Positions 47,408 to 60,237 of a stretch of DNA of 64,000 bases are shown one piece after another. A program made the position numbers and the translations under genes. This DNA is from Pseudomonadota bacterium (GTDB lineage Bacteria > Desulfobacterota > Binatia > UBA9968). The notes beneath the pieces are model-generated. The model was given only the letters and a program-made list of their open reading frames with translations. It was not told the origin of the DNA and searched no databases. The stretch covers positions 1-64,000 of the forward strand of contig JAJPJQ010000036.1 in NCBI GenBank assembly GCA_021324155.1, in the 5' to 3' direction. Within the stretch, counting starts at the first letter, position 1. Every line of letters begins with the position of its first letter.

Positions 47408-50400
47408 ATGAATGCCATCCATATCCGCGGCGCGAAGCAGAACAACCTCAAGAATATCGACATCGATATTCCGCTGAACGCGCTAACGGTGGTCACGGGC
47501 GTCAGCGGCTCGGGTAAATCCACCCTCGCCTTCGACATCCTCTACGCCGAAGGGCAGCGGCGCTACGTCGAGAGCTTCTCAGCCTACGCGCGGCAGTTCC
47601 TCGACCGCATGGACAAGCCCGACGTCGACAGCATCGAAGGCATTCCGCCGACGATCGCGATCGATCAGCGCCGGCCGGTCAAGACCTCCCGCTCGACCGT
47701 CGGCACGATGACGGAGCTGCACGACCACTTCAAGCTCTTGTTCGCCAAGGTCGCCGCGCTCTATTGCTCCGGCTGCGACCGGCTCGTCGAGCGCGACAGC
47801 GCGCAGAGCATTTTCAAGAAGCTCGCTGCGATCGCCGACGGCGCGCCGCTCATCGTCACGTTCCCGCTCGCGATCGCGTCGCTGCCGTGGACGGAGATCA
47901 AAGCGGGAATGCAGGGCGCCGGCTTTCACCGGCTGCTCGACGGAACGAGCATCCACGATATCGAAGAAATTGCCGAGCTGCCGGAGGGAACGGAAAAGAT
48001 CGAAGTTATCGCGGATCGGCTGATCTACCGCGCCCAGCAGCGCAAGCGTATCACCGGCTCCATCGAGCAGGCGCTGCAGTACGGCAAAGGCCGGGTCAGG
48101 CTCTATTATCCCGACGAGAGCTGGCGCGTCGAGCCCTTCAGCAGCCACTTTCACTGCGCGCACTGCGATCTGAGCTACCGGGATCCGACGCCCAACCTGT
48201 TTTCGTTCAACAGCCCGCTCGGCGCGTGCGAGACCTGTCGCGGCTTCGGCCGCGTCATCGACATCGATCTCGACCTCATCATTCCCGATCCGTCGAAGTC
48301 GCTCGCCGACGGCGCGATCAAGCCCTGGCGCACCAAGCAGCGGCGCATGACGCGCCTGCTGGATTTCTGCGAGCGCAAGCGCATTCCCGCGAAAAAACCG
48401 TACGGCGAATTAAGCGACAAACAAAAACAGCTCGTTATCGAAGGCGACGGCCAGTACAAGGGCATCCGCGGCTGGTTCCAGCGCCTGGAGCGGAAGAGCT
48501 ACCGCATGCACGTGCGCGTGTTTCTCGCGCGCTACCGCGCCTATCTCCTCTGCCCGGAGTGCCGCGGCTCGCGCCTGAAGCCCGACGCTCTCAACTTCCG
48601 CATCGACGGCAAGAATATCTTCGAGATCAACTCGATGAGCGTCGGCGAGGCCCACCGTTTTTTCGAGAATCTCCATCTCAACACGCAGAGCGATCCGGTC
48701 GCGCGCATGATCCTCGACGAGATCCGCCGCCGGCTGAATTATTTGATGGGCGTCGGCCTCGAATATCTCACGCTCGACCGCCAGTCGCGCACGCTTTCCG
48801 GCGGCGAGCTCGAGCGCGTCGATCTCACGACCGCGATCGGCTCGTCGCTCGTCAACACGCTTTACGTGCTCGACGAGCCGTCGATCGGCCTCCATCCGCG
48901 CGACAGCCGGCGTCTGGTCGAGATCCTGCGCGATCTGCGCGCCAACAACAACACCGTCGTGGTGGTCGAACACGATCCCGAGATCATCAAAGAGAGCGAC
49001 TACATCATCGACTTGGGTCCCAAGGCCGGCGAGCAGGGCGGCCGCGTCGTCTACGCCGGCCCGTACCGGAATCTGCTGGCCGACCGCGAGTCGCTGACAG
49101 CCGCGTACCTCGCGGAGCGCCGGACGATTCCCTTCCCGTCGCGGCGGCGGAAGCCGATTTCCCAGCGCCGGATCCGCATCTTCGGCGCGGCGGCGAATAA
49201 TTTGAAAAAAGTCGATGTCGACATCCCGCTCGGGCTTTTCGTTTGCATCACCGGCGTCTCCGGCTCGGGCAAATCGAGCCTGGTCGACGAGGTCATTTGC
49301 CGCAACCTGCGGAAGCTCAAGGAATCTTCCGGCGCGCCGGTCACGCACTGCGAGCGCGTAGAGGGCGTGGAGAAAATCTCCGAGGTGATTCTCGTCGACC
49401 AATCGCCGGTCGGCACGACGCCGCGCGCGAACCCGGCGACCTACATGAAGGTCTTCGACCCGATCCGCAAGCTCTTTGCCAACGCCGATCTCTCGAAGCT
49501 CCGCGGCTACACGCCGTCGACGTTTTCGTTCAACGTCGAGGGCGGGCGCTGCGAGACCTGCCGCGGCGAAGGATACGAAAAAGTCGAGATGCAGTTTCTC
49601 TCCGACGTTTACACCTCCTGTCCCGAATGCCAGGGGAGCCGCTTCCGTCAGGAGATACTCGAAGTCACCTACCGCGGCCGCACGATTCACGACGTGCTCA
49701 ACATGACGGTGACCGAAGCGATCGAGTTTTTCAAAGACACAACCGAGGTCGAGTACGGGCTGAGGCCGCTGCGCGACGTCGGACTCGACTACGTGCGCCT
49801 GGGGCAGCCGCTCACGACGCTCTCGGGCGGCGAGTCGCAGCGCCTGAAGCTCGCGGCGCACATGGCGCGCGCGCGGAAATCGGGCACACTGTTCATCTTC
49901 GACGAGCCGACGACCGGCCTGCATTTCCACGACATCGAGAAGCTGCTGCGCGCGCTCGGCGAATTGACCGATCAGGGCCATTCGGTCGTCGTGATCGAGC
50001 ACAATATGGAAGTGATCAAGTGCGCGGATCACATCATCGATCTCGGCCCCGAAGGCGGCGTCGCGGGCGGCGAGATCGTCGCGACCGGCACGCCGGAAGA
50101 GATCGCGCAGTGCGAGCGCTCGCATACCGGCAGATATTTGAAGCCCTATCTCAAGCGCGGCGGCGCCTCGCCCTACGCGTCCGAGTTCGAAAAGCTTCCG
50201 CTCGCGGCCGAGGCCGCAGACTCGTACGGCGGTGACGGCGCGATCCGCGTCGTCGGCGCGAAGGAGCATAATCTCAAAAACATCAACGTCGACATCCCGC
50301 GCGACCGCTTCGTCGTCATCACCGGCCTCAGCGGCTCGGGAAAATCCTCGCTCGCCTTCGACATCATCTACGCCGAGGGGCAGCGGCGCTACATCGACAG

Positions 50401-53071
50401 CCTGTCGGCCTATGCGCGGCAGTTCTTGAACATCATGGACCGGCCGAATGTCGATCTATTGACCGGCATCCCGCCGACGGTGGCGATCGAGCAGCGCATG
50501 AGCCAGGGCGGCAGAAAATCGACCGTCGCGACGGTAACGGAAATATATCACTACTTGCGCCTTCTCTACTCCAAGCTGGGCGAGCAGCACTGCGTGCAGT
50601 GCGACCGGCCGATCCGCTCGCTGACGAAGAGCCAGATTCTCGACCGCATCTCGCGCGTCCACCGCGGCAAGGAAGTCGCGGTGCTGAGCCCGATCGTTCG
50701 GGGCCGCAAAGGCTTTCATAAAGAAGTCATCACGGGCGCGCTGAAGCTCGGGTACAAGCGCGCGCGCATCGACGGCCGCGTGATCGATCTGCGGTCGCCC
50801 AAGCTCGTCAGCGGTCTCGAGCGCTACCGGGAGCACGATGTCGACATCGTCATCGGACAGGCGAAGGCCGGCGGGCGCGAAGTCGAGGCGATGGTCGAGC
50901 AGGGACTGAGACTCGGCAACGGCGTCGTCCACCTCATTACGCGCTCCGGCGAGCACGTCTACAATCAGCGGCTCTTCTGCCTGCACTGCGGCGTCGGCTA
51001 CGAGCCGCTCGATCCGCGGCTGTTTTCCTTCAACAGCCGCCAGGGCGCGTGCGCGGACTGCAACGGCATGGGCTTCAACATGGAGTTCGTGCCCGAGCTG
51101 ATCGTCGGCGACCCGCGCCGCTCGCTCGAGGATATTCTGTCCGCGTGGTCGGACAATGCTTTCATCAGCGCGGGGGAGCTGAAGCGGCGGCAGGAAGATC
51201 TGCTGCGCGAGCTCAAAAAGTCGCGCGTCAGCCTCGACGCGCCGTTCTCGCGTCTCAGCAAGAAAAAGCGCGAGATGATCGTCCACGGCGACGGCAACGG
51301 CTTCGTCGGCCTGGTGCCCTATTTCAAGGAATTGCGCGAGGGCGCGGAGAACGGCCTCGCGGGTTGGCTGGAACAGTTCATGGCCGAATCGGCGTGCGCC
51401 GGCTGCGGCGGCAGGCGGCTTAACCGCCGCGCACAGGCCGTCAAGGTGAACGGACGCGCGATCGGCGAAGTGACGGAGCTCTCGGTCGACGACGCGCGAC
51501 GACATTTCGCCAAATTCGAGCTGAATGGCAACGGCGCCGGCGCGGCGCGCGACCGCGCGATTACGGAAAAAGTTTTGCGCGAGATCCGCCAGCGGTTGGA
51601 TTTTCTCGCCGAGGTCGGGCTGCCCTATCTCACGCTCGATCGCCGCGCCGACACTCTGTCCGGCGGCGAGGCGCAGCGGATCCGGCTCGCGGCGCAGTTG
51701 GGTTCGAACCTCCGCGGCGTTTGTTACGTTCTCGACGAGCCGACGATCGGACTCCATCCGCGCGACAACGGCATGCTGCTGGAGACGCTCAAAAAACTCG
51801 AGCGGGCCGGCAACAGCGTGCTCGTCGTCGAGCACGACGAGGCGACGATCGAGGCGGCCGACCTGATTGTCGATCTAGGCCCCGGCGCCGGCGTCCGCGG
51901 CGGCAATCTCGTCGCGATCGGCACGCCGGACGAGATCCGGCAGAATCCCGCTTCGCTCACCGGCGTGTTCCTCAACACGCCGAAAAAAAGAATCTGGCCG
52001 CCGCGCCTGTTCGCCGGCTCGACATGGCTCACGATCCGCGGCGCGAAGGAGCACAATCTAAAAAATATCGACGTCAAGCTGCCGCTCGGCGCCTGGAGCT
52101 GCGTGACCGGCATCTCCGGCTCGGGCAAGAGCACGCTGGTGAAGGAAGTCCTCTATAAGGGGCTCAAGCAGAAGCTCGGCCAATTCGCCGGACGCCCGGG
52201 CGCGCACAAGGACATTACCGGCTGGCAGGCCGTCGAGCGCATCGTCGAGGTCGACCAGAGCCCGATCGGCAAGACGCCGCGCTCGATTCCCGCCTCGTAC
52301 GTCGGTTTCCTCGACGAGATCCGGCGCGTCTTCGCGCTCACGCCGGAAGCGCGGCTCCGCGGCTACGCTCCGAATCGCTTCTCGTTCAATGTCTCGGGCG
52401 GGCGCTGCGAGGTCTGCGCGGGCCAGGGAAAAATCCGCAAGGAGATGAGTTTCCTACCAGACGTCTTCCTCGACTGCGACGCGTGCGGCGGCCAGCGCTT
52501 CAACGAGGAGACGCTGGCGATCCGCTACAACGACAAGAGCATGGGCGATGTGCTTGCGATGACGGTCGAGGAGGCGGTGGAGTTTTTCCGCGCCCTGCCC
52601 AAGGTGATGCGTCCGCTTCAGATCTTGAACGACATCGGCATGGGGTACATCACACTCGGCCAGGCGAGCAACACACTCTCGGGCGGCGAAGCGCAGCGCA
52701 TCAAGCTCGCCTACGAGTTGGGCAAGGAATCGCGCGGTAAGACGCTCTATGTGCTCGACGAGCCGACCACCGGCCTGCATTTCGCCGATGTCGAGAAGCT
52801 GATCCAGATCCTGCACCGCCTCGTCGACATGGGCAACACCGTGCTCACGATCGAGCACAACCTCGAGATCATCAAGGAGGCCGACTACCTCGTCGACCTC
52901 GGGCCCGAGGGCGGCGAGAACGGCGGCGAGCTCGTCGCGTGCGGCACGCCGCTCGATGTAATCCGGGACGGCAAGCGCTCACACACGGCGCGCTACCTGC
53001 GCGAGTACTTGAACGGCAACGGAGAGAAAGTCGCCGAGGCGACTGCCAACACGCTATCGACGGCGGTATGA
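47408..53071 (+). CDS. uvrA: double-length UvrA excinuclease subunit
   Basis: An 1887-residue protein made of two complete UvrA units (about 1-940 and 945-1887; a usual UvrA is about 940). Four Walker A motifs are intact at about residues 31, 615, 972 and 1567 (GxSGSGKS). The ABC signatures are near 461, 803, 1416 and 1756; the first is atypical ([16 protein letters not shown]) while the others read LSGGE(A/S)QR(I/L). Both units carry the CxxC-CxxC zinc module (GGRCETC, GGRCEVC). UvrA recognises bulky DNA lesions as a dimer; here the dimer would be covalent. This dimeric form is known in some bacteria. Confidence 0.95.
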
Positions 53072-54506: not shown

Positions 54507-55360
54507 TTTGCCTTCCGCACCAGCGCCGCGACTTCCGGCGTCGTGAGGCCTTCTTTCAGCGCGGTCACCGTGCCGCGCTCGCGAATCTCCTGCGCGAGCT
54601 TCTTGGTGGCGCCGATCGCCGCTTTAAGAAACGCAGAGCCGTAGCTGACGCGCGCAAGGCCTATTTCCTGCAGCTCGGCTACGCTCGGGCTTTCCGGCCC
54701 CGCGAGGATGCTGACGGGCGCATGAATCTCTTTCACCAGCCGCGCGATCGTGTCGCGCGCGGGGACTTGCAAGAAAAAGATGCAGTCGCCGCCGGCTTCC
54801 GCGTAGGCGTTGCCGCGGCGGATCGCCTCGTCGAGCGCTTTCTTCGGATCGTCTTTCATGACCATGAAGGCATCGACGCGCGCGTTCAGGAAGAATTCGC
54901 TCCCGAGCGCCCGCTTCGCCTCCATGACGGCGGCGATGCTTTCGAGCTGCGCGCCGAGGTCGACGAGGCCGCGGCCGACGCCGCCCTTGCCGCCGGCGCC
55001 GTCTTCAAGGTTCATGCCCGCCGCGCCCCGCGCAACCAGGCCGCGCACCGTAGCGGCGACGTCACCGTAGCCGCGCTCCGCGTCGGCATTCACAGGCAAT
55101 GAGACCGCCGCGGCGATGTCGCCGGTGATGTCGAGGAAGCCTTCGCGGCTCAGAACCTCGCCGTCGGCGTAGCCGACCGACGCGGCGATGCCGCCGCTCG
55201 TCCCCTGGATTGCCGGAAATCCCATCTGCTCGAACAGCCGCGCGCTCAGCACGTCGTACGCGCCAGGCATCACGAGAATCTCGGGCGCGCGGACGAGTTC
55301 CCTCAGCCGGCGGCTCTTCGCGTTCGCCGCGGCGATGACTTCATTCGGAATGGACTCCAT
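54503..55360 (-). CDS. isocitrate lyase/PEP mutase family protein
   Basis: A 285-residue (beta/alpha)8 protein of the PrpB/PEP mutase superfamily: MPGAYDVLSARLFEQMGF, PVNADAERGYGD (metal-binding Asp/Glu) and GAAGMNLEDGAGG. The KKCGH loop of isocitrate lyases is absent, so methylisocitrate lyase activity is doubtful; oxaloacetate decarboxylase or PEP-mutase-like hydrolase activity is possible. AGGAGG precedes ATG 55360. Confidence 0.85.
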   Translation of the reverse strand: MESIPNEVIAAANAKSRRLRELVRAPEILVMPGAYDVLSARLFEQMGFPAIQGTSGGIAASVGYADGEVLSREGFLDITGDIAAAVSLPVNADAERGYGDVAATVRGLVARGAAGMNLEDGAGGKGGVGRGLVDLGAQLESIAAVMEAKRALGSEFFLNARVDAFMVMKDDPKKALDEAIRRGNAYAEAGGDCIFFLQVPARDTIARLVKEIHAPVSILAGPESPSVAELQEIGLARVSYGSAFLKAAIGATKKLAQEIRERGTVTALKEGLTTPEVAALVRKAK

Positions 55361-55427
55361 GATTCGCCTCCTGGGCTCAAAGGAATCATCCTAAAGCGCA
55401 TGAAGGCGCGGAGCAAGGGTCGGAAGA

Positions 55428-55811
55428 TTAAATCGGCACAGGCGTCGAGATGTGCTCGTGCACGATCAGCCAGTCGGCGCCGCGCTTCTCCCAGATCGCG
55501 GTGTGGCGGCAGTCGAGGTCGACCTTCGCGCCGGATTTTTCGGTGAACGAGAGATGAAACGTCAGCGTCATCCACGCGACGGCGCCGCGCCGGGTGATCT
55601 TCAGGTCGTTATTCGGAATCAGGCTGCCGGCGGAGATTTGGTCGAAGAAGAGCTTCTGCACGCCGGCCTTGTATTCGGCCCAGCCGCTGTATTGCATCGG
55701 CAGAACGTCGAAGAAGACGAGGCCGGCGTCCTTCGCATAGAAGGGCGCCGGCGCGTCGGTGTCGAGGGAATTCCACGCCGCGTAATACCGGGCCACGGTT
55801 TTCTCGTCCAT
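55428..55811 (-). CDS. SnoaL/NTF2-like protein
   Basis: A 127-residue cone-fold protein: TVARYYAAWNSLDTDAPAPF and the closing WEKRGADWLIVHEHIS are typical of the nuclear-transport-factor-2/SnoaL (ketosteroid isomerase-like) group. Cytosolic, no signal. ATG 55811 follows AAAGGA; an ATG ten codons upstream is less likely. It is the last of the minus-strand run that begins with the cupredoxin, 16 nt after the hemoglobin gene. Confidence 0.8.
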   Translation of the reverse strand: MDEKTVARYYAAWNSLDTDAPAPFYAKDAGLVFFDVLPMQYSGWAEYKAGVQKLFFDQISAGSLIPNNDLKITRRGAVAWMTLTFHLSFTEKSGAKVDLDCRHTAIWEKRGADWLIVHEHISTPVPI

Positions 55812-55827
55812 GGCAAATCCTTTCGCT

Positions 55828-56298
55828 CTATTTCTCGACAATGTCGGGCTTCAGGCTCGATGCGAGCGCGAGAAATTCCTGTTTCTCTTTGTCCGGCACT
55901 TTGAACTTATCGAGCGAGGCGACGAGGTGCTTGACCGTAAGCTGCCAGTCACTCTCGGTGATGCCGAGGCCGGCATGGACGGTCTTCATCGGCCGGCCGA
56001 TGTAGAGGCACGGCCCGCCGGTCGCCTGGCAGAACTGGTCGACGACGAGCTGGCGCAGCCGCTTCTGCGAATCGGCGCTCACGCCGACGAGAAACCGCGA
56101 GAGCTGCTTATCCGTTGCGAGGCGCGCGATGAAATCGTCGCTCACCGCCGCGATGGCGTCGTAGCCGCCCAGCCGTTTGTAAAGCGACGCGCCGGATTGC
56201 CCGCCCGCCGACTGCGCGGCGGAATTCGACGCGCAGCCACCGGTGAAAAAAAGGGCCAGCGATAGAACAATTGTTTTTATGGCAGTTTTACGATTCAT
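55828..56298 (-). CDS. truncated hemoglobin lipoprotein
   Basis: A 156-residue group I (trHbN) globin with an N-terminal lipoprotein signal (lipobox FTGGC, Cys near residue 22). Globin features: LYKRLGGYDAIAAVSDDF, and MKTVHAGLGI with the probable proximal His. A lipid-anchored extracytoplasmic trHb would bind O2 or NO in the periplasm. Neighbours encode a DUF420-like membrane protein, a helical lipoprotein and a cupredoxin. The globin call is firm; anchoring is read from the lipobox. Confidence 0.88.
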   Translation of the reverse strand: MNRKTAIKTIVLSLALFFTGGCASNSAAQSAGGQSGASLYKRLGGYDAIAAVSDDFIARLATDKQLSRFLVGVSADSQKRLRQLVVDQFCQATGGPCLYIGRPMKTVHAGLGITESDWQLTVKHLVASLDKFKVPDKEKQEFLALASSLKPDIVEK

Positions 56299-56322
56299 TC
56301 TGTCCCCTCCATGGAAGAAGAT

Positions 56323-56763
56323 TTAGAGCCAAATGTAATACGTCGCGACGCCGAAGCCAACGACGATCCACCACAACGCGAGTTCCGCGCGCATCCAGCG
56401 CCTGTAGTTGCTGAGTCGCAGGCGCTCCGGAAGGAGCTTCGTGCCGGCGGCAATAACGATATAGATGCCGAGGAGCTGCGCCGCGCCGCCGGCGGCAGCG
56501 TGCAGCGTCGCGATCGAATAATACGGCTTTGCCACTTCGACCGGCAGCCCGGGCAACACACCGTCACGAAATGCCGGCAGCATGATGCGAGCGATAAGCG
56601 CCACGTTCAGCAGCACGACCGCGCTCTGGCAGACGGCGTGGGCGCGATAATGCTTCCGCCGCGCCAGTGCCATGCCGACGCCGAGCGCAGAGGCCATCGA
56701 AAGCTGGAGCACGAGATTCAAATCGGAACCGAAGGAAGCGCCCGTGCCTAAAAAGCCGCCCAT
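56323..56763 (-). CDS. DUF420-like membrane protein
   Basis: A 146-residue integral membrane protein with four hydrophobic segments. Conserved-looking His/Tyr residues sit in KHYRAHAVCQS and AKPYYSIATLHAAAG, and the C-terminus (YRRWMRAELALWWIVVGFGV) resembles YozB/DUF420 proteins, which occur near heme-copper oxidase genes. It could bind heme or assist an oxidase (inference). GAGGGACG precedes the ATG; a terminator-like hairpin lies just upstream. Confidence 0.75.
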   Translation of the reverse strand: MGGFLGTGASFGSDLNLVLQLSMASALGVGMALARRKHYRAHAVCQSAVVLLNVALIARIMLPAFRDGVLPGLPVEVAKPYYSIATLHAAAGGAAQLLGIYIVIAAGTKLLPERLRLSNYRRWMRAELALWWIVVGFGVATYYIWL

Positions 56764-56775
56764 ACGTCCCTCTTT

Positions 56776-56810
56776 GAAAATGCGGCCGGGGCGCGAGCCC
56801 CGGCCGCATT
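56776..56810 (-). terminator. intrinsic terminator or attenuator
   Basis: A perfect 13-bp inverted repeat (AATGCGGCCGGGG at 56779-56791, CCCCGGCCGCATT at 56798-56810) with a 6-nt loop, followed on the minus strand by TTTTC. It ends the transcript of the helical lipoprotein gene and stands only 16 nt before the start of the DUF420-like gene, so it would control read-through into the hemoglobin genes. Confidence 0.8.
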
Positions 56811-56827
56811 GCCACCGCTATTCACAG

Positions 56828-57499
56828 CTACATGCCTGCGTAGCGGTCAGGGAATTGCTTCACGATCGCGTCCGCGAGCGGATCGGCGATCATGTGCATA
56901 TGACCGGTGGCGGTCCTGAGCAGCATGTAGGTCTTGTTGTAATCTTTCACCGCTTGCGCGTCGATCACGTCTTTTAGCGTCAGGATGTGCCCTTTGACAA
57001 GCTCGGCGACCGTCGCCTTCGGCAGATTGGGATTCGCCGAGCTCAAGAACGCGCCGAGGTCGTCGGTGTAGCCGACGAGCTCGTTCACCGCCTTGGTCTG
57101 CTTGGCTTTATCCTTGGTCGCAATGCCGACGGTGTAATCGACTACGAAGCCGATGTGCTTTCGCCACAGCGGCAGGAACGCTGCTTCGGCGTCCGCGCCG
57201 TAGACCGAGCCGACCGCTTTTGAGATCGCCACCGAGTTGGCGTCGAGCGCGCCCGCCGCCGCTTTGAATTCGGCGTCGCGCCCGCCGAGCGCCGCGCCGG
57301 TCGCGCTCGCGGCGAGCGACACGTGCTCGGCAAAAAGAATATTCAAGCCGCTGCGCAGATCGGCGGCCTTGCCGCTGCTCTGCATTATCGTCTTGTGATC
57401 CGATTCGGCCTCCGCCTTGGAAGCCATCGGGGCGCACGCCGTCGTGAGCAGGAAGCCCAGCGCTACCGCTCCGGTCAGTTTATGTGATTTCGTCTCCAT
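56828..57499 (-). CDS. exported helical repeat lipoprotein of unknown function
   Basis: A 223-residue protein with a lipoprotein-like signal (GFLLTTAC, Cys near 23). The body is two similar all-helical halves: LNILFAEHVSLAASATGAAL with KHIGFVVDYTVG in the first, and LVKGHILTLKDVIDAQAVK with GHMHMIADPLADAIVKQFPDRY in the second, each carrying His residues. Similar helical proteins occur near cupredoxins in Firmicutes, annotated vaguely as copper amine oxidase-like. Metal binding is inferred. GGAGAA precedes ATG 57499. Confidence 0.75.
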   Translation of the reverse strand: METKSHKLTGAVALGFLLTTACAPMASKAEAESDHKTIMQSSGKAADLRSGLNILFAEHVSLAASATGAALGGRDAEFKAAAGALDANSVAISKAVGSVYGADAEAAFLPLWRKHIGFVVDYTVGIATKDKAKQTKAVNELVGYTDDLGAFLSSANPNLPKATVAELVKGHILTLKDVIDAQAVKDYNKTYMLLRTATGHMHMIADPLADAIVKQFPDRYAGM

Positions 57500-57543
57500 C
57501 GAATTCTCCTTTCGCTTTGTGTTTTTAAGCGCCAACGGAATGT

Positions 57544-57879
57544 TTATTTCACCGTAATCTCGCCGCGCATGTGTTGATGGCGGTCGCAGAAAAATGTGTA
57601 CGTGCCCGGCTGTGAAAACGTGAAGCTGAACTTCGCGCCCTTGCCCGACAGAGACGCGTCAAAGCGCCCGTCCTTGTTGTCGGGCGCGCCGGACGTCACG
57701 GTGTGACGGACGTCGTCCTGGCTGATCCAGGTAACCGTCGCGCCCGCCTTCACTTCGACCTGCTTGGGCTGGAATTGAAAAGTCTGGATGTTGATTGTTG
57801 CGCCGCTTTCCGCGCCGAGCTGCGGCGCCAATGCAAGCAGCAGAACCGCCGCCGAACCGATAGTGTTGCCGAATCGCAT
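57544..57879 (-). CDS. cupredoxin (plastocyanin-like)
   Basis: A 111-residue exported blue-copper protein. Signal peptide about residues 1-23 (LLALAPQLGAES). Type 1 copper ligands: His in DDVRHTV, then Cys, His and Met in FFCDRHQHM. It is likely a periplasmic electron carrier or copper-binding protein. It heads the minus-strand cluster and faces the sigma factor gene across 224 nt. ATG 57879 was chosen for the signal peptide. Confidence 0.9.
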   Translation of the reverse strand: MRFGNTIGSAAVLLLALAPQLGAESGATINIQTFQFQPKQVEVKAGATVTWISQDDVRHTVTSGAPDNKDGRFDASLSGKGAKFSFTFSQPGTYTFFCDRHQHMRGEITVK

Positions 57880-57962
57880 CGTCTCGTCCCCTTTGTCACG
57901 GTCTACGAATCGGTCTTGCGCTTCGGATTGGCGCATAACAGCAAGGAAATTTTATCGCGCGG

Positions 57963-57984
57963 CGGAAATCCGTTTTGGTTTCCG
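57963..57984. promoter_or_regulatory. inverted repeat in the sigma factor-cupredoxin spacer
   Basis: CGGAAA (57963-57968) and TTTCCG (57979-57984) form a perfect 6-bp dyad around 10 nt. It lies between the divergent cupredoxin and ECF sigma genes and could be an operator. The remaining spacer has no gene I can recognise. Confidence 0.35.
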
Positions 57985-58103
57985 GATCGTATGACTTAAG
58001 GGTGGTATTCTACATACGCCGCTCGCGTTAGAGTTTCACCGCCGATGACTTATTACAGACACTCCGGTGGCAGTCGCTGCGCCTTCGTGATAGGTGGAGG
58101 CGC

Positions 58104-58667
58104 ATGAGCGCATTGGCCGCCGATGAAGCTAGAGAACTCATCCGGCAACTCGCCGGCGGCGACCGCGGCGCTTTCGGCCGTTTTTACGATGCGTATGCGC
58201 CGCTCGTATTTACCTTCGCGCTGCGCATGCTGCGCGAGCGCGCCGCGGCCGAAGATCTGCTTCAGGAGGTTTTTTTACAGGCGTGGCGCGACGCGCCGAG
58301 CTACAGCCCGGAACGCGGCACTCCGGAGGCATGGCTCGTCATGATGACCCGCAGCCGTGCAATCGACAAGCTGCGCTCCATACGTAGAAGATGGAAGAGC
58401 TTCGTGTCGATGGAGCGCCAGTCGGGGCAGTCTTACGACGCGCCAGTCGAGAGCGGCGCGGCGGCGTCCGAGGCGCGGATCATGGTCAATAGCGCGCTGG
58501 CGCGGCTGCCGGACAATCAGCGGCAAGTGCTCGAGATGGCGTACTTCGACGGCATGAGCCAGACGGAGATCGCGGCGCGCACGAACGAGCCGCTCGGCAC
58601 GGTGAAGACGCGCATGCGCGCGGCGCTCCACCGCCTGCGCGAGCTCGTGGGCAAAGAGACGATTTGA
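58104..58667 (+). CDS. ECF-type RNA polymerase sigma factor
   Basis: A 187-residue sigma-70 family ECF factor. Region 2: GAFGRFYDAYAPLVFTFALR and AAAEDLLQEVFLQAWRDA; region 4: LPDNQRQVLEMAYFDGMSQTEIA with the helix-turn-helix GTVKTRMRAALHRLRE. GGTGGAGG precedes ATG 58104. The adjacent anti-sigma gene follows after 7 nt. Likely targets are its own promoter and the divergent cupredoxin cluster, by position only. Confidence 0.93.
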   Translation: MSALAADEARELIRQLAGGDRGAFGRFYDAYAPLVFTFALRMLRERAAAEDLLQEVFLQAWRDAPSYSPERGTPEAWLVMMTRSRAIDKLRSIRRRWKSFVSMERQSGQSYDAPVESGAAASEARIMVNSALARLPDNQRQVLEMAYFDGMSQTEIAARTNEPLGTVKTRMRAALHRLRELVGKETI

Positions 58668-58674
58668 AGCTTTT

Positions 58675-59433
58675 ATGAACCACGAAGAATGGCTTGAACG
58701 CGCGGAAATCTACGCGCTCGGAGCGCTCGACGGCGAGGAGCTGCAGCAATTCGAGGCGCACGTCGCGTCGGGATGCGCGGAGTGCGAGGGAATCCTACGC
58801 AACAGCCGCGAGGCGCTCGCGCAAGCCGCTGCGTCGCTCGCGCCGGCCAAGCCGCCGCCGCACGTCAAGACCGAGCTTATGCGGCACATCGGCGCACAGA
58901 CCGACGCGCCGGTCCGCGAGCGGCCGCGCTTTCGCTGGTCGTGGCCGGTCGGTATCGGCGCGCTCGCCGCAGCGGGCCTCGTGCTCGTTTTGTCGTGGCA
59001 GCTGATCGATACGCGTAAAAAACTCGAGGATGCGCAAAGCAGACTCGGCGTCGTCGAATCCGAGAAGGCGCAGACCAAAGAGGTGATGGATTTCCTTTCG
59101 AATCCCCAGGTCCGCGTCGTCAATCTGACCGGTGTGCCGCCGACCTCGGGGGGCAAGGCGCAGCTTTTGTGGGACCCCATCGCGCGCAAGGGCATTCTGC
59201 TGACCATCGGCCTCCCGCAAACGCCCGCAGAAAAAGCCTACGAGCTCTGGGGGCTCGCCGGGTCCGAGGCCGTTCCGGCCGGCGTTTTTACGGTAAACGA
59301 GCAAGGCCGCGTCGTCTTCCGTCTGCCGAAACTGCCGGAATCGCAGCCTTTCGAAAAATTCGCCGTGACGCTGGAGCCGACGGGCGGCGTGCCCAAAGCA
59401 ACGGGGCCGGTCGTGCTCATCGGCAGCATGTAG
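58675..59433 (+). CDS. RskA-type anti-sigma factor
   Basis: A 252-residue membrane anti-sigma factor. The cytosolic N-domain has [19 protein letters not shown] and a zinc-like H-x4-C-x2-C (HVASGCAEC), one residue longer than the common spacing. A membrane helix is at about 84-105 ([19 protein letters not shown]). The periplasmic RskA domain contains [20 protein letters not shown] and AYELWGL. It presumably holds the sigma factor until an envelope signal triggers proteolysis, as known for RskA. Confidence 0.9.
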
Positions 59434-59439
59434 CGGCGC

Positions 59440-60237
59440 ATGCGAAAAATTCCCACAGCGCTCACGATCGCCGGCTCGGATTCCGGCGCCGGCGCGGGCA
59501 TCCAAGCGGATTTGAAGACGTTCGCGGCGAACGGCGTCTACGGGACCAGCGCGATCGCCGCGATCACGGCGCAGAATACCAAAGCCGTGCGGAAGATATT
59601 GCAGCTGCCGCCGGCGATCGTCGCCGCGCAGATCGACGCCGTCGTCGAAGACATCGGCGCCGATGCGGTAAAGACCGGCATGCTGCTCGATGCGGCGATC
59701 GTGAAAATCGTCGCGGCGAGAATTCACGCCCGGCGACTGCGCAACCTCGTCGTCGATCCGGTGATGGTCGCGAAATCCGGCGACCTCCTGCTGCGCAAGG
59801 ATGCGATGGCGGCACTGAAGAAGAAGCTGATTCCGCTCGCGACGGTCGTCACACCGAACATCCCCGAGGCGGAAGAATTGACGGGAATCTCTCTGAAGCG
59901 GCCGGAGGATTTCAAAGAAGCGGCGCGACGAATTGTCGCGCTAGGCGCGAAAACGGTCGTGATCAAAGGCGGCCACCGCAAGGGACCGGCGACGGATCTG
60001 TTTTACGACGGAAAAAATTTTCGCGAGTTCAGCGCGCCCCGCTTCCGCACGCGCAACACGCACGGCACCGGCTGCACCTTCGCCGCGGCGATCGCGGCGC
60101 ATTTAGCGAAAGGAGCGACGCCCGCGGAGGCGGTGCGGCGCGCGAAGCGCTACCTCACGCGCGCGATCGAAAAAAGCTATTCGATCGGCGCCGGCCACGG
60201 CCCGGTGAATCATTTTTACGGTTTGAAGACCCGCTGA
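59440..60237 (+). CDS. thiD: hydroxymethylpyrimidine/phosphomethylpyrimidine kinase
   Basis: A 265-residue ribokinase-fold kinase of thiamine synthesis. [20 protein letters not shown] opens it; [13 protein letters not shown] and the catalytic Asp in [14 protein letters not shown] are present. It phosphorylates HMP to HMP-PP. It starts 6 nt after the anti-sigma gene, but a functional link is not suggested. No TPP riboswitch is recognisable before it. Confidence 0.95.

Follow-up and report, generated by a model that had tools for sequence, protein, structure and literature searches.

In a 64,000-nucleotide stretch of DNA from a soil bacterium of the GTDB lineage Binatia (positions 1 to 64,000 of contig JAJPJQ010000036.1, assembly GCA_021324155.1; genome size 4.8 Mb), hereafter referred to as the window, five minus-strand genes face a plus-strand pair coding for an extracytoplasmic function (ECF) sigma factor and an RskA-type anti-sigma factor. 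A first-pass annotation of the window had recognized this seven-gene layout, and the genes were indeed found at or near the positions it assigned. Two of the five genes, for a cupredoxin and for a helical lipoprotein (here called the bundle), recur together in several phyla, and in two lineages they follow a predicted ECF promoter. The locus is tentatively read below as an envelope cassette that handles copper.

Gene content and linkage of the locus

The gaps among the five minus-strand genes are 16–64 bases long, which makes a single operon plausible (Table 1). Its first gene probably starts at 57879 rather than with a longer frame from 57936, since the latter would enclose its own predicted promoter. 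The product of this gene scored 55.8 bits with the Pfam Copper-bind model (cut-off 21.2), and its best sequence matches in the PDB were the cupredoxin domain of copper nitrite reductase, plastocyanin, and amicyanin. The usual type-1 ligand pattern can be recognized by eye (the His of RHTVTS, followed by C-x2-H-x2-M), making the protein an apparent type-1 copper binder. The lipoprotein encoded by the second gene had been described as His-rich, which is too strong a term for 7 His in 223 residues, four of them at conserved positions. Its lipobox is imperfect, and by eye none is visible in some relatives. Searches of Pfam, NCBIfam, and the PDB (the latter with the domain profile at E 10 and with a divergent member at E 1) produced no match for the family.

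Loci were assigned to a core subfamily when their bundle domain was at least 40% identical to that of the window, or, in the case of L015, ~45% identical over a partly masked copy. A cupredoxin gene is found within 1.5 kb in 25 of the 31 core loci, whereas none of the 25 divergent loci has one (Fisher p 1.6e-10). Independence among the loci is incomplete, and some of the divergent ones lie on short contigs. Excluded from these counts were loci where a contig end cuts the domain or its neighborhood (L158, L163, G240:C132, and G108:C298), the divergent locus L162, L164 (which coincides with L003), duplicates of counted loci, the 11 plasmid records (four of which were inspected), and the divergent genomes G135, G216, G254, G359, and G107. 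Two Planococcus copies at the boundary of the core (37–40% identity) were likewise left uncounted; one, a plasmid copy of Planococcus versutus, adjoins a plastocyanin gene (39–40%), and the other does not. In the upstream sequence of L003, only the tail of a cupredoxin frame is visible by eye. Among 19 carrier genomes, selected for having the bundle domain, a Pfam cupredoxin lies within 1.5 kb in 15 (0.06 expected) and an RskA_C gene within 3 kb of the bundle in nine (0.05 expected, with 0–3 RskA_C matches per genome). Cupredoxins are also fused behind bundle domains, four in L012 and two in L047. The gene order exceeds chance.

The first-pass annotation had treated the seven genes as one combination. 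The part of it that recurs in several phyla is the cupredoxin/lipoprotein pair, often with the sigma/anti-sigma pair; hemoglobin and DUF420 genes facing the same sigma pair recur in one genome of the same family (L087), and the five-gene set was found nowhere else among the loci examined. The conserved core is both smaller in gene content and wider in spread than had been supposed. Two pairs of an RskA_C gene and, a few hundred bases on, a same-strand cupredoxin gene have no bundle match (G102:C115:3072-4137 and G259:C3:549730-550709); because of them, the link between SigK/RskA and cupredoxins may be wider than the bundle. A cupredoxin–sortase fusion is present in L008.

The bundle was detected in 2 of 97 genomes in a search of relatives (the window's own counted), in 13 loci of Rokubacteria, Methylomirabilota, Chloroflexi, Actinomycetota, Armatimonadota, and others (45–75% identity), in 13 of 95 genomes of a phylum sample around a Rokubacterium, and in 37 of 400 genomes of a Chloroflexi-centered sample, the last having mostly divergent members only. 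With a divergent query, it was also found in 11 plasmid records (Bacillota, Methylocystis, Bradyrhizobium, and Nocardioides), where the proteins are labeled "copper amine oxidase", "glycosyltransferase", or hypothetical, or lack any annotation. These two names look unfounded, since among seven family representatives scanned (rather than the annotated proteins themselves), only the cupredoxin exceeded Pfam cut-offs. The window copy is 78% identical to that of L004, from another phylum, and 76% identical to that of L007, from its own family, and the backbone of a tree of bundle domains (leaving out L047, L048, L050, and further core entries that carry different locus identifiers) is without resolution. 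The patchy spread is likely due to horizontal transfer. There are one, two, or four bundle domains per protein; because copies within one protein cluster in the tree at five loci (L006, L010, L011, L049, and L158, but not L013/L014), tandem duplication, or homogenization of copies, probably occurred repeatedly.

Several neighbors of bundle genes may be recorded here. A DUF4331 gene lies directly 3′ of the bundle gene in two lineages (L004:6669-8345 and L007:6569-7216), Ferritin_2 genes flank the four-domain bundle–cupredoxin fusion (L012:4649-5263 and L012:8228-8992), and a class F sortase gene follows each of the two P. lenghuensis copies. On a Methylocystis rosea plasmid (L069), a divergent bundle with all four conserved His lies beside the gene for an RNA polymerase sigma factor; genes for encapsulin and NnrS are also in the vicinity. 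Elsewhere in the window, a frame of 1887 aa at 47408-53071 (+) resembles, by eye, a head-to-tail fusion of two UvrA proteins.

Table 1. Genes and predicted promoters of the locus (window coordinates).
Feature	Coordinates	Strand	Properties	Pfam match (E)
Cupredoxin	57544..57879	-	111 aa, apparent signal peptide	Copper-bind 6.6e-15
Helical lipoprotein	56828..57499	-	223 aa, one domain	none below 0.1
DUF420-like (CtaM-like) membrane protein	56323..56763	-	146 aa	DUF420 6.5e-7
Group-1 (HbN-type) truncated hemoglobin	55828..56298	-	156 aa, lipoprotein-like signal	Bac_globin 1.6e-16
SnoaL-like protein	55428..55811	-	127 aa, without apparent signal peptide	SnoaL_3 8e-13
SigK-like ECF sigma factor	58104..58667	+	187 aa	sigma region 2 6e-21, region 4 4.3e-16
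RskA-type anti-sigma factor	58675..59433	+	252 aa, apparent membrane helix	RskA_C 3.3e-22
Predicted ECF promoter of operon, AATCC-N17-CGTA	57904..57929	-	24 nt upstream of cupredoxin start	
Predicted ECF promoter of sigma gene, AATCC-N16-CGTA	57967..57991	+	112 nt upstream of sigma gene start	

The bundle domain and its putative metal site

Residues of the bundle are given in A1 numbering, with domain residue 1 corresponding to protein residue 42. AlphaFold2, supplied with 22 aligned domains, predicted a six-helix bundle (mean pLDDT 92.2, pTM 0.85). When the alignment was compared with itself, offsets 56 and 112 were the top two of 105, and the value at offset 56 was reached by none of 2000 column shuffles that preserved the hydrophobic pattern. 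Judged by this self-comparison, the domain consists of a helical hairpin of 56 residues, present in three copies. His18, His74, and His130 share one repeat position, exactly 56 residues apart, while Asn47, Tyr103, and His159 share another.

E17, H18, N47, W71, H74, and H130 are present in all 41 core domains, Y103 in 39, and H159 in 38. Among 33 divergent domains, H18 is kept in 30, H74 and H130 in 13 each, and H159 in six; one divergent subfamily retains the three-His set at 23–32% identity, and another loses it. When positions were reckoned on ideal helices, His18, His74, and His130 pointed toward the hydrophobic side (−15, −36, and −22 degrees) at heights within 3 Å of each other, and 9 of the 11 fully invariant polar residues fell into one 4.5-Å slab. 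A metal site is the natural reading of such conserved, inward-facing His, and the predicted arrangement suggests a trigonal His18/His74/His130 site, in which the metal is probably copper.

A Foldseek search of the PDB with the bundle model gave a best E of 0.21. The best VIA-align hit was a designed bundle (Z 9.7, 3.6 Å over 160 residues); this is within the tool's range for common helical arrangements, so that neither a known relative nor a new fold is claimed. Copper storage proteins (Csp) are four-helix bundles lined by many cysteines. Membership in this family was considered but does not fit: the sole Cys of the window protein, C22, lies in the signal region, and six helices are predicted.

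A predicted ECF promoter and the sigma/anti-sigma pair

In 11 upstream regions from five loci (the window, L004, L007, L048, and L087), the pattern AATCC-N15..18-CGTA was common to five, while 100 Markov-shuffled sets gave at most four, and this once. The first-pass annotation had raised the possibility of a shared ECF promoter ahead of 57879, 56763, and 58104. AATCC-N16/17-CGTA is present ahead of the first and the last of these; none was found ahead of 56763, so that expression of the DUF420, hemoglobin, and SnoaL genes would depend on read-through.

Upstream of the operon, AATCC-N16/17-CGTA was found in 13 of 30 loci. These are 13 of the 14 that belong to the window's family or to Methylomirabilota/Rokubacteria, including 9 of 10 loci of the two lineages outside the discovery set (0.03 expected; the exception is L003). 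Within the discovery set, the window, L004, L007, and L087 have it, and L048 does not. Matches lie 7–114 nt upstream of the first gene (with hand-set starts), and there are two each in L154 and L155. The 30 loci (705 kb of strand) contain 20 matches, 15 ahead of the operon and two ahead of sigma genes. Control patterns (backward, swapped, antisense, and wrong-spacer) were found in 0, 1, 2, 0, and 1 of the 30 loci, both antisense matches being the sigma-gene sites. Control in trans is suggested by eight loci in which the promoter is retained although the stretch covered revealed no sigma gene (L005, L009, L154–L157, L159, and L161).

No sigma-70-type promoter was found in 55300-59500, and an intergenic alignment of the window with L087 revealed no further clear conserved block. 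In the 16 loci of Chloroflexi, Actinomycetota, Armatimonadota, or unassigned origin, a search for a common dyad gave nothing above shuffled sets, and variants of the form CATCC-N16/17-CGTA are suggestive only. We take the SigK motif to be CCATCC, which was not confirmed in the literature searched. By eye, the octamer ATGACTTA occurs twice on the plus strand of the sigma–operon intergenic region (window 57991-58052), one copy overlapping the end of the predicted sigma promoter; it is possibly a regulator site.

The window's genome contains 90 exact matches with spacer 15–18, versus 26 for the backward control. Outside the window, there are 42 matches with spacer 16 or 17; of 40 examined, 26 lie inside apparent genes according to a home-made codon score, and a frame starts downstream of four of the remaining 14 (L099, L104, L120, and L124). 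The L099 match precedes a gene for a lipoprotein with an SMP-30 domain, and the L124 match precedes an MsrP-like gene. The match at G000:C38:78596-78620 is located 68 nt ahead of one of the two MsrP-like genes of the genome, a gene with the Pfam domain Oxidored_molyb that we presume to be MsrP. Inclusion of MsrP in the regulon was considered and is unsupported by relatives, the site being present ahead of 1 of 20 starts checked (the L183 start is unsure).

The window sigma factor contains sigma regions 2 and 4 only (Pfam), and its gene adjoins that of the anti-sigma factor, whose RskA_C match is the sole one in the genome at E 1e-5. It scored 157.2 of the 226 bits set as the NCBIfam cut-off of PRK09646 (SigK), and 186.2 of 222 bits with the best model, PRK12519, which is also below cut-off. 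Because the SigK-specific cut-off is not reached, we call the protein SigK-like rather than SigK. According to PMC7509140, two cysteines are present in 94% of ECF18 and 56% of ECF19 factors; the window protein has none, and the pair is not obligatory in ECF19. The zinc-type class I anti-sigma factors are described in PMC7406223 as having an Hx3Cx2C motif. The N-terminus of the window anti-sigma factor instead reads H-x4-C-x2-C, and among 10 aligned homologs the two spacings occur in five each.

Possible function and relation to known systems

The remaining genes of the operon have a history of their own. The label "DUF420-like", given in the first-pass annotation, is apt, the Pfam score of 30.1 bits being marginally below the cut-off of 30.5. 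Relatives 58–61% identical were found in 4 of 57 other genomes, and at L088–L090 neither a hemoglobin nor a sigma gene adjoins them. The hemoglobin has an HbN-type globin domain classed as group 1, and HbN is its best sequence match in the PDB. At the distal positions, which we take to be Tyr33 and Gln58 of HbN, it has Ile and Val, and NO dioxygenase activity is therefore not to be assumed. In the same-family genome G002, a DUF420 gene and two hemoglobin genes face a sigma/RskA pair in the same neighborhood (MOSC, PEP mutase, and thiD; L087), with the promoter ahead of the hemoglobins and with no cupredoxin, bundle, or SnoaL gene. Since L087 has the sigma pair, hemoglobins, and DUF420 without the copper pair, the window, as judged from gene content, places two cassettes under a single sigma factor, one of hemoglobin and DUF420 and one of cupredoxin and bundle. 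A SnoaL relative (70%) adjoins a hemoglobin in L091. Genes for NicO-type metal transporters lie beside relatives of the lipoprotein-type hemoglobin (L091:4543-6390 and L092:1105-2838).

We read the locus as a SigK-type (ECF19-like) regulon cassette for envelope copper handling, a reading to which we give somewhat less than an even chance. The circuit itself is of a known kind (SigK/RskA): RskA would keep the sigma factor at the membrane until an envelope signal, whose nature we can only infer, frees it to transcribe its own gene and the operon from the two AATCC-N16/17-CGTA promoters. The operon would export the type-1 copper cupredoxin and the helical lipoprotein. The latter may bind one metal ion, most likely copper, per 180-aa domain through three His from three hairpins in pseudo-threefold arrangement. 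Linkage, promoter, domain repeat, and His conservation are here taken from sequence, while the fold and the geometry of the site are predicted. The identity of the metal and its transfer between partners are inferred; outside the cytoplasm, the pair would either trap copper or shuttle copper or electrons from one site to the other. The DUF420-like protein may carry copper across the membrane, as is proposed for the DUF420 protein CtaM of Bacillus subtilis (PMC13344008); CtaM is required for heme-copper oxidases (PMC13344008 and PMC9145763). The hemoglobin may handle O2 or NO. Of the roles in O2, NO, or copper handling considered in the first-pass annotation, copper is favored, from the cupredoxin link and the published DUF420/CtaM work, while for an O2/NO role only the hemoglobin speaks.

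A number of observations weigh against this reading. Six of the 31 core loci have no nearby cupredoxin (L003, L013, L014, L051, L053, and L160), and one of them, L160, has the sigma factor, RskA, promoter, and lipoprotein. H18, H74, and H130 occur together in 12 of the 33 divergent domains, from nine loci with no cupredoxin found nearby (H159 is also kept in two of these domains, from one locus), and for the Methylocystis plasmid copy with all four His, no cupredoxin is annotated in the stretch shown. The three-His site thus does not depend on a cupredoxin partner, and because of the nine loci the partner appears to track the core subfamily, to which the partnership is possibly confined, rather than the three His per se. 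The metal site was deduced from ideal helices instead of model coordinates, and on these helices E17 and H159 point aside (−115 and −95 degrees). The promoter is present in 0 of the 16 loci of Chloroflexi, Actinomycetota, Armatimonadota, and unassigned origin, and the split between the two lineages and the others was drawn after the promoter result. It precedes the sigma gene in two of five loci (the window and L004, but not L007, L087, or L160), L004 counting only if the start of its gene lies within the longest frame. Finally, the copper link of the DUF420 protein and the hemoglobin may be incidental here, since both occur in relatives without the bundle.

Some of these points would fit a bundle that binds zinc, iron, or heme, or that acts as a periplasmic sensor signaling to RskA, with a cupredoxin that is merely co-regulated. 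His ligands by themselves are not copper-specific, divergent copies retain the three His without a nearby cupredoxin, and RskA is linked in 9 of 19 genomes. However, a cupredoxin adjoins many core loci where the stretch covered showed neither an RskA nor a sigma gene, and the bundle sits behind a SigK-type promoter, as expected of a target gene; we hold this explanation to be unlikely. Rather unlikely, in our view, is that the bundle is an enzyme, in which a His3 catalytic center of copper or another metal is fed electrons by the cupredoxin, as the type-1 site feeds the type-2 site in copper nitrite reductase, with NO, nitrite, or reactive oxygen as possible substrates. The His3 arrangement from three repeats, the Trp, Asn, and Glu (all invariant) and the Tyr (almost invariant) that share its level, the bundle–cupredoxin fusion, the hemoglobin in the operon, and the NnrS gene near the Methylocystis relative are all consistent with it. 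The clustering of same-protein copies at five loci, though not at L013/L014, fits binding capacity at least equally well.

A general envelope oxidative-stress regulon with no copper-specific role is quite improbable: the promoter match ahead of one MsrP-like gene would speak for it, but the site is missing ahead of the second copy and of 18 relatives and so may be due to chance, and the recurrent partner is a copper protein. That the genes are functionally unlinked neighbors is barely credible, even though the full five-gene set is known from the window only, since for the cupredoxin, bundle, and sigma pair (SnoaL is not covered) linkage, fusion, and promoter statistics contradict it.

The copper-handling reading has an extended version, which we regard as improbable. 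In it, the trigonal His3 copper center of the triplicated-hairpin bundle would trade electrons with the type-1 cupredoxin, forming a two-copper redox system induced by a dedicated ECF sigma factor, with its second site in a non-cupredoxin fold. Such a system would be convergent with copper nitrite reductase as well as with three-helix His3 copper peptides of human design.

No description of the module, of the bundle family, or of a cupredoxin under SigK was recognized in the literature searched, subscription papers being mostly beyond reach. With the present analysis, a widespread, apparently misannotated family gains a biochemical hypothesis, in which each 180-aa domain binds a single metal through three named His and, in the core subfamily, has a cupredoxin as its partner. 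A SigK/RskA-type ECF group of largely uncultured soil lineages gains a promoter sequence and a target module. Should the site hold copper, it would be an additional way of building a copper center in a helical protein.

The closest known circuit is that of SigK/RskA (ECF18/ECF19) in Mycobacterium and relatives, with which the window shares a two-domain ECF factor, an adjacent RskA_C membrane anti-sigma factor, and envelope genes nearby. The likely targets in the window are the cupredoxin and the unnamed bundle rather than MPT70/MPT83, the sigma factor is devoid of cysteines, and the anti-sigma factor has an N-terminal H-x4-C-x2-C. CorE factors are likewise ECF factors tied to copper genes; in these copper-responsive proteins, as described in PMC10141476, a Cys-rich C-terminal extension replaces the anti-sigma factor, whereas the window sigma factor has no Cys, hence no such extension, and has RskA. 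The DUF420-like protein is, like CtaM, a small membrane protein, apparently of the same family, but its score is marginally below the Pfam cut-off, and no oxidase genes were recognized adjoining it. The window cupredoxin shares the Copper-bind domain and the usual ligand pattern with the plastocyanin and amicyanin types, but it did not reach the cut-off of any NCBIfam model that it hit (49.8 bits with amicyanin, where 110.2 are required). The annotated Bacillota plasmid proteins share the bundle domain with the window protein; all four His are present in two of three Planococcus copies, one of which lies beside a plastocyanin.

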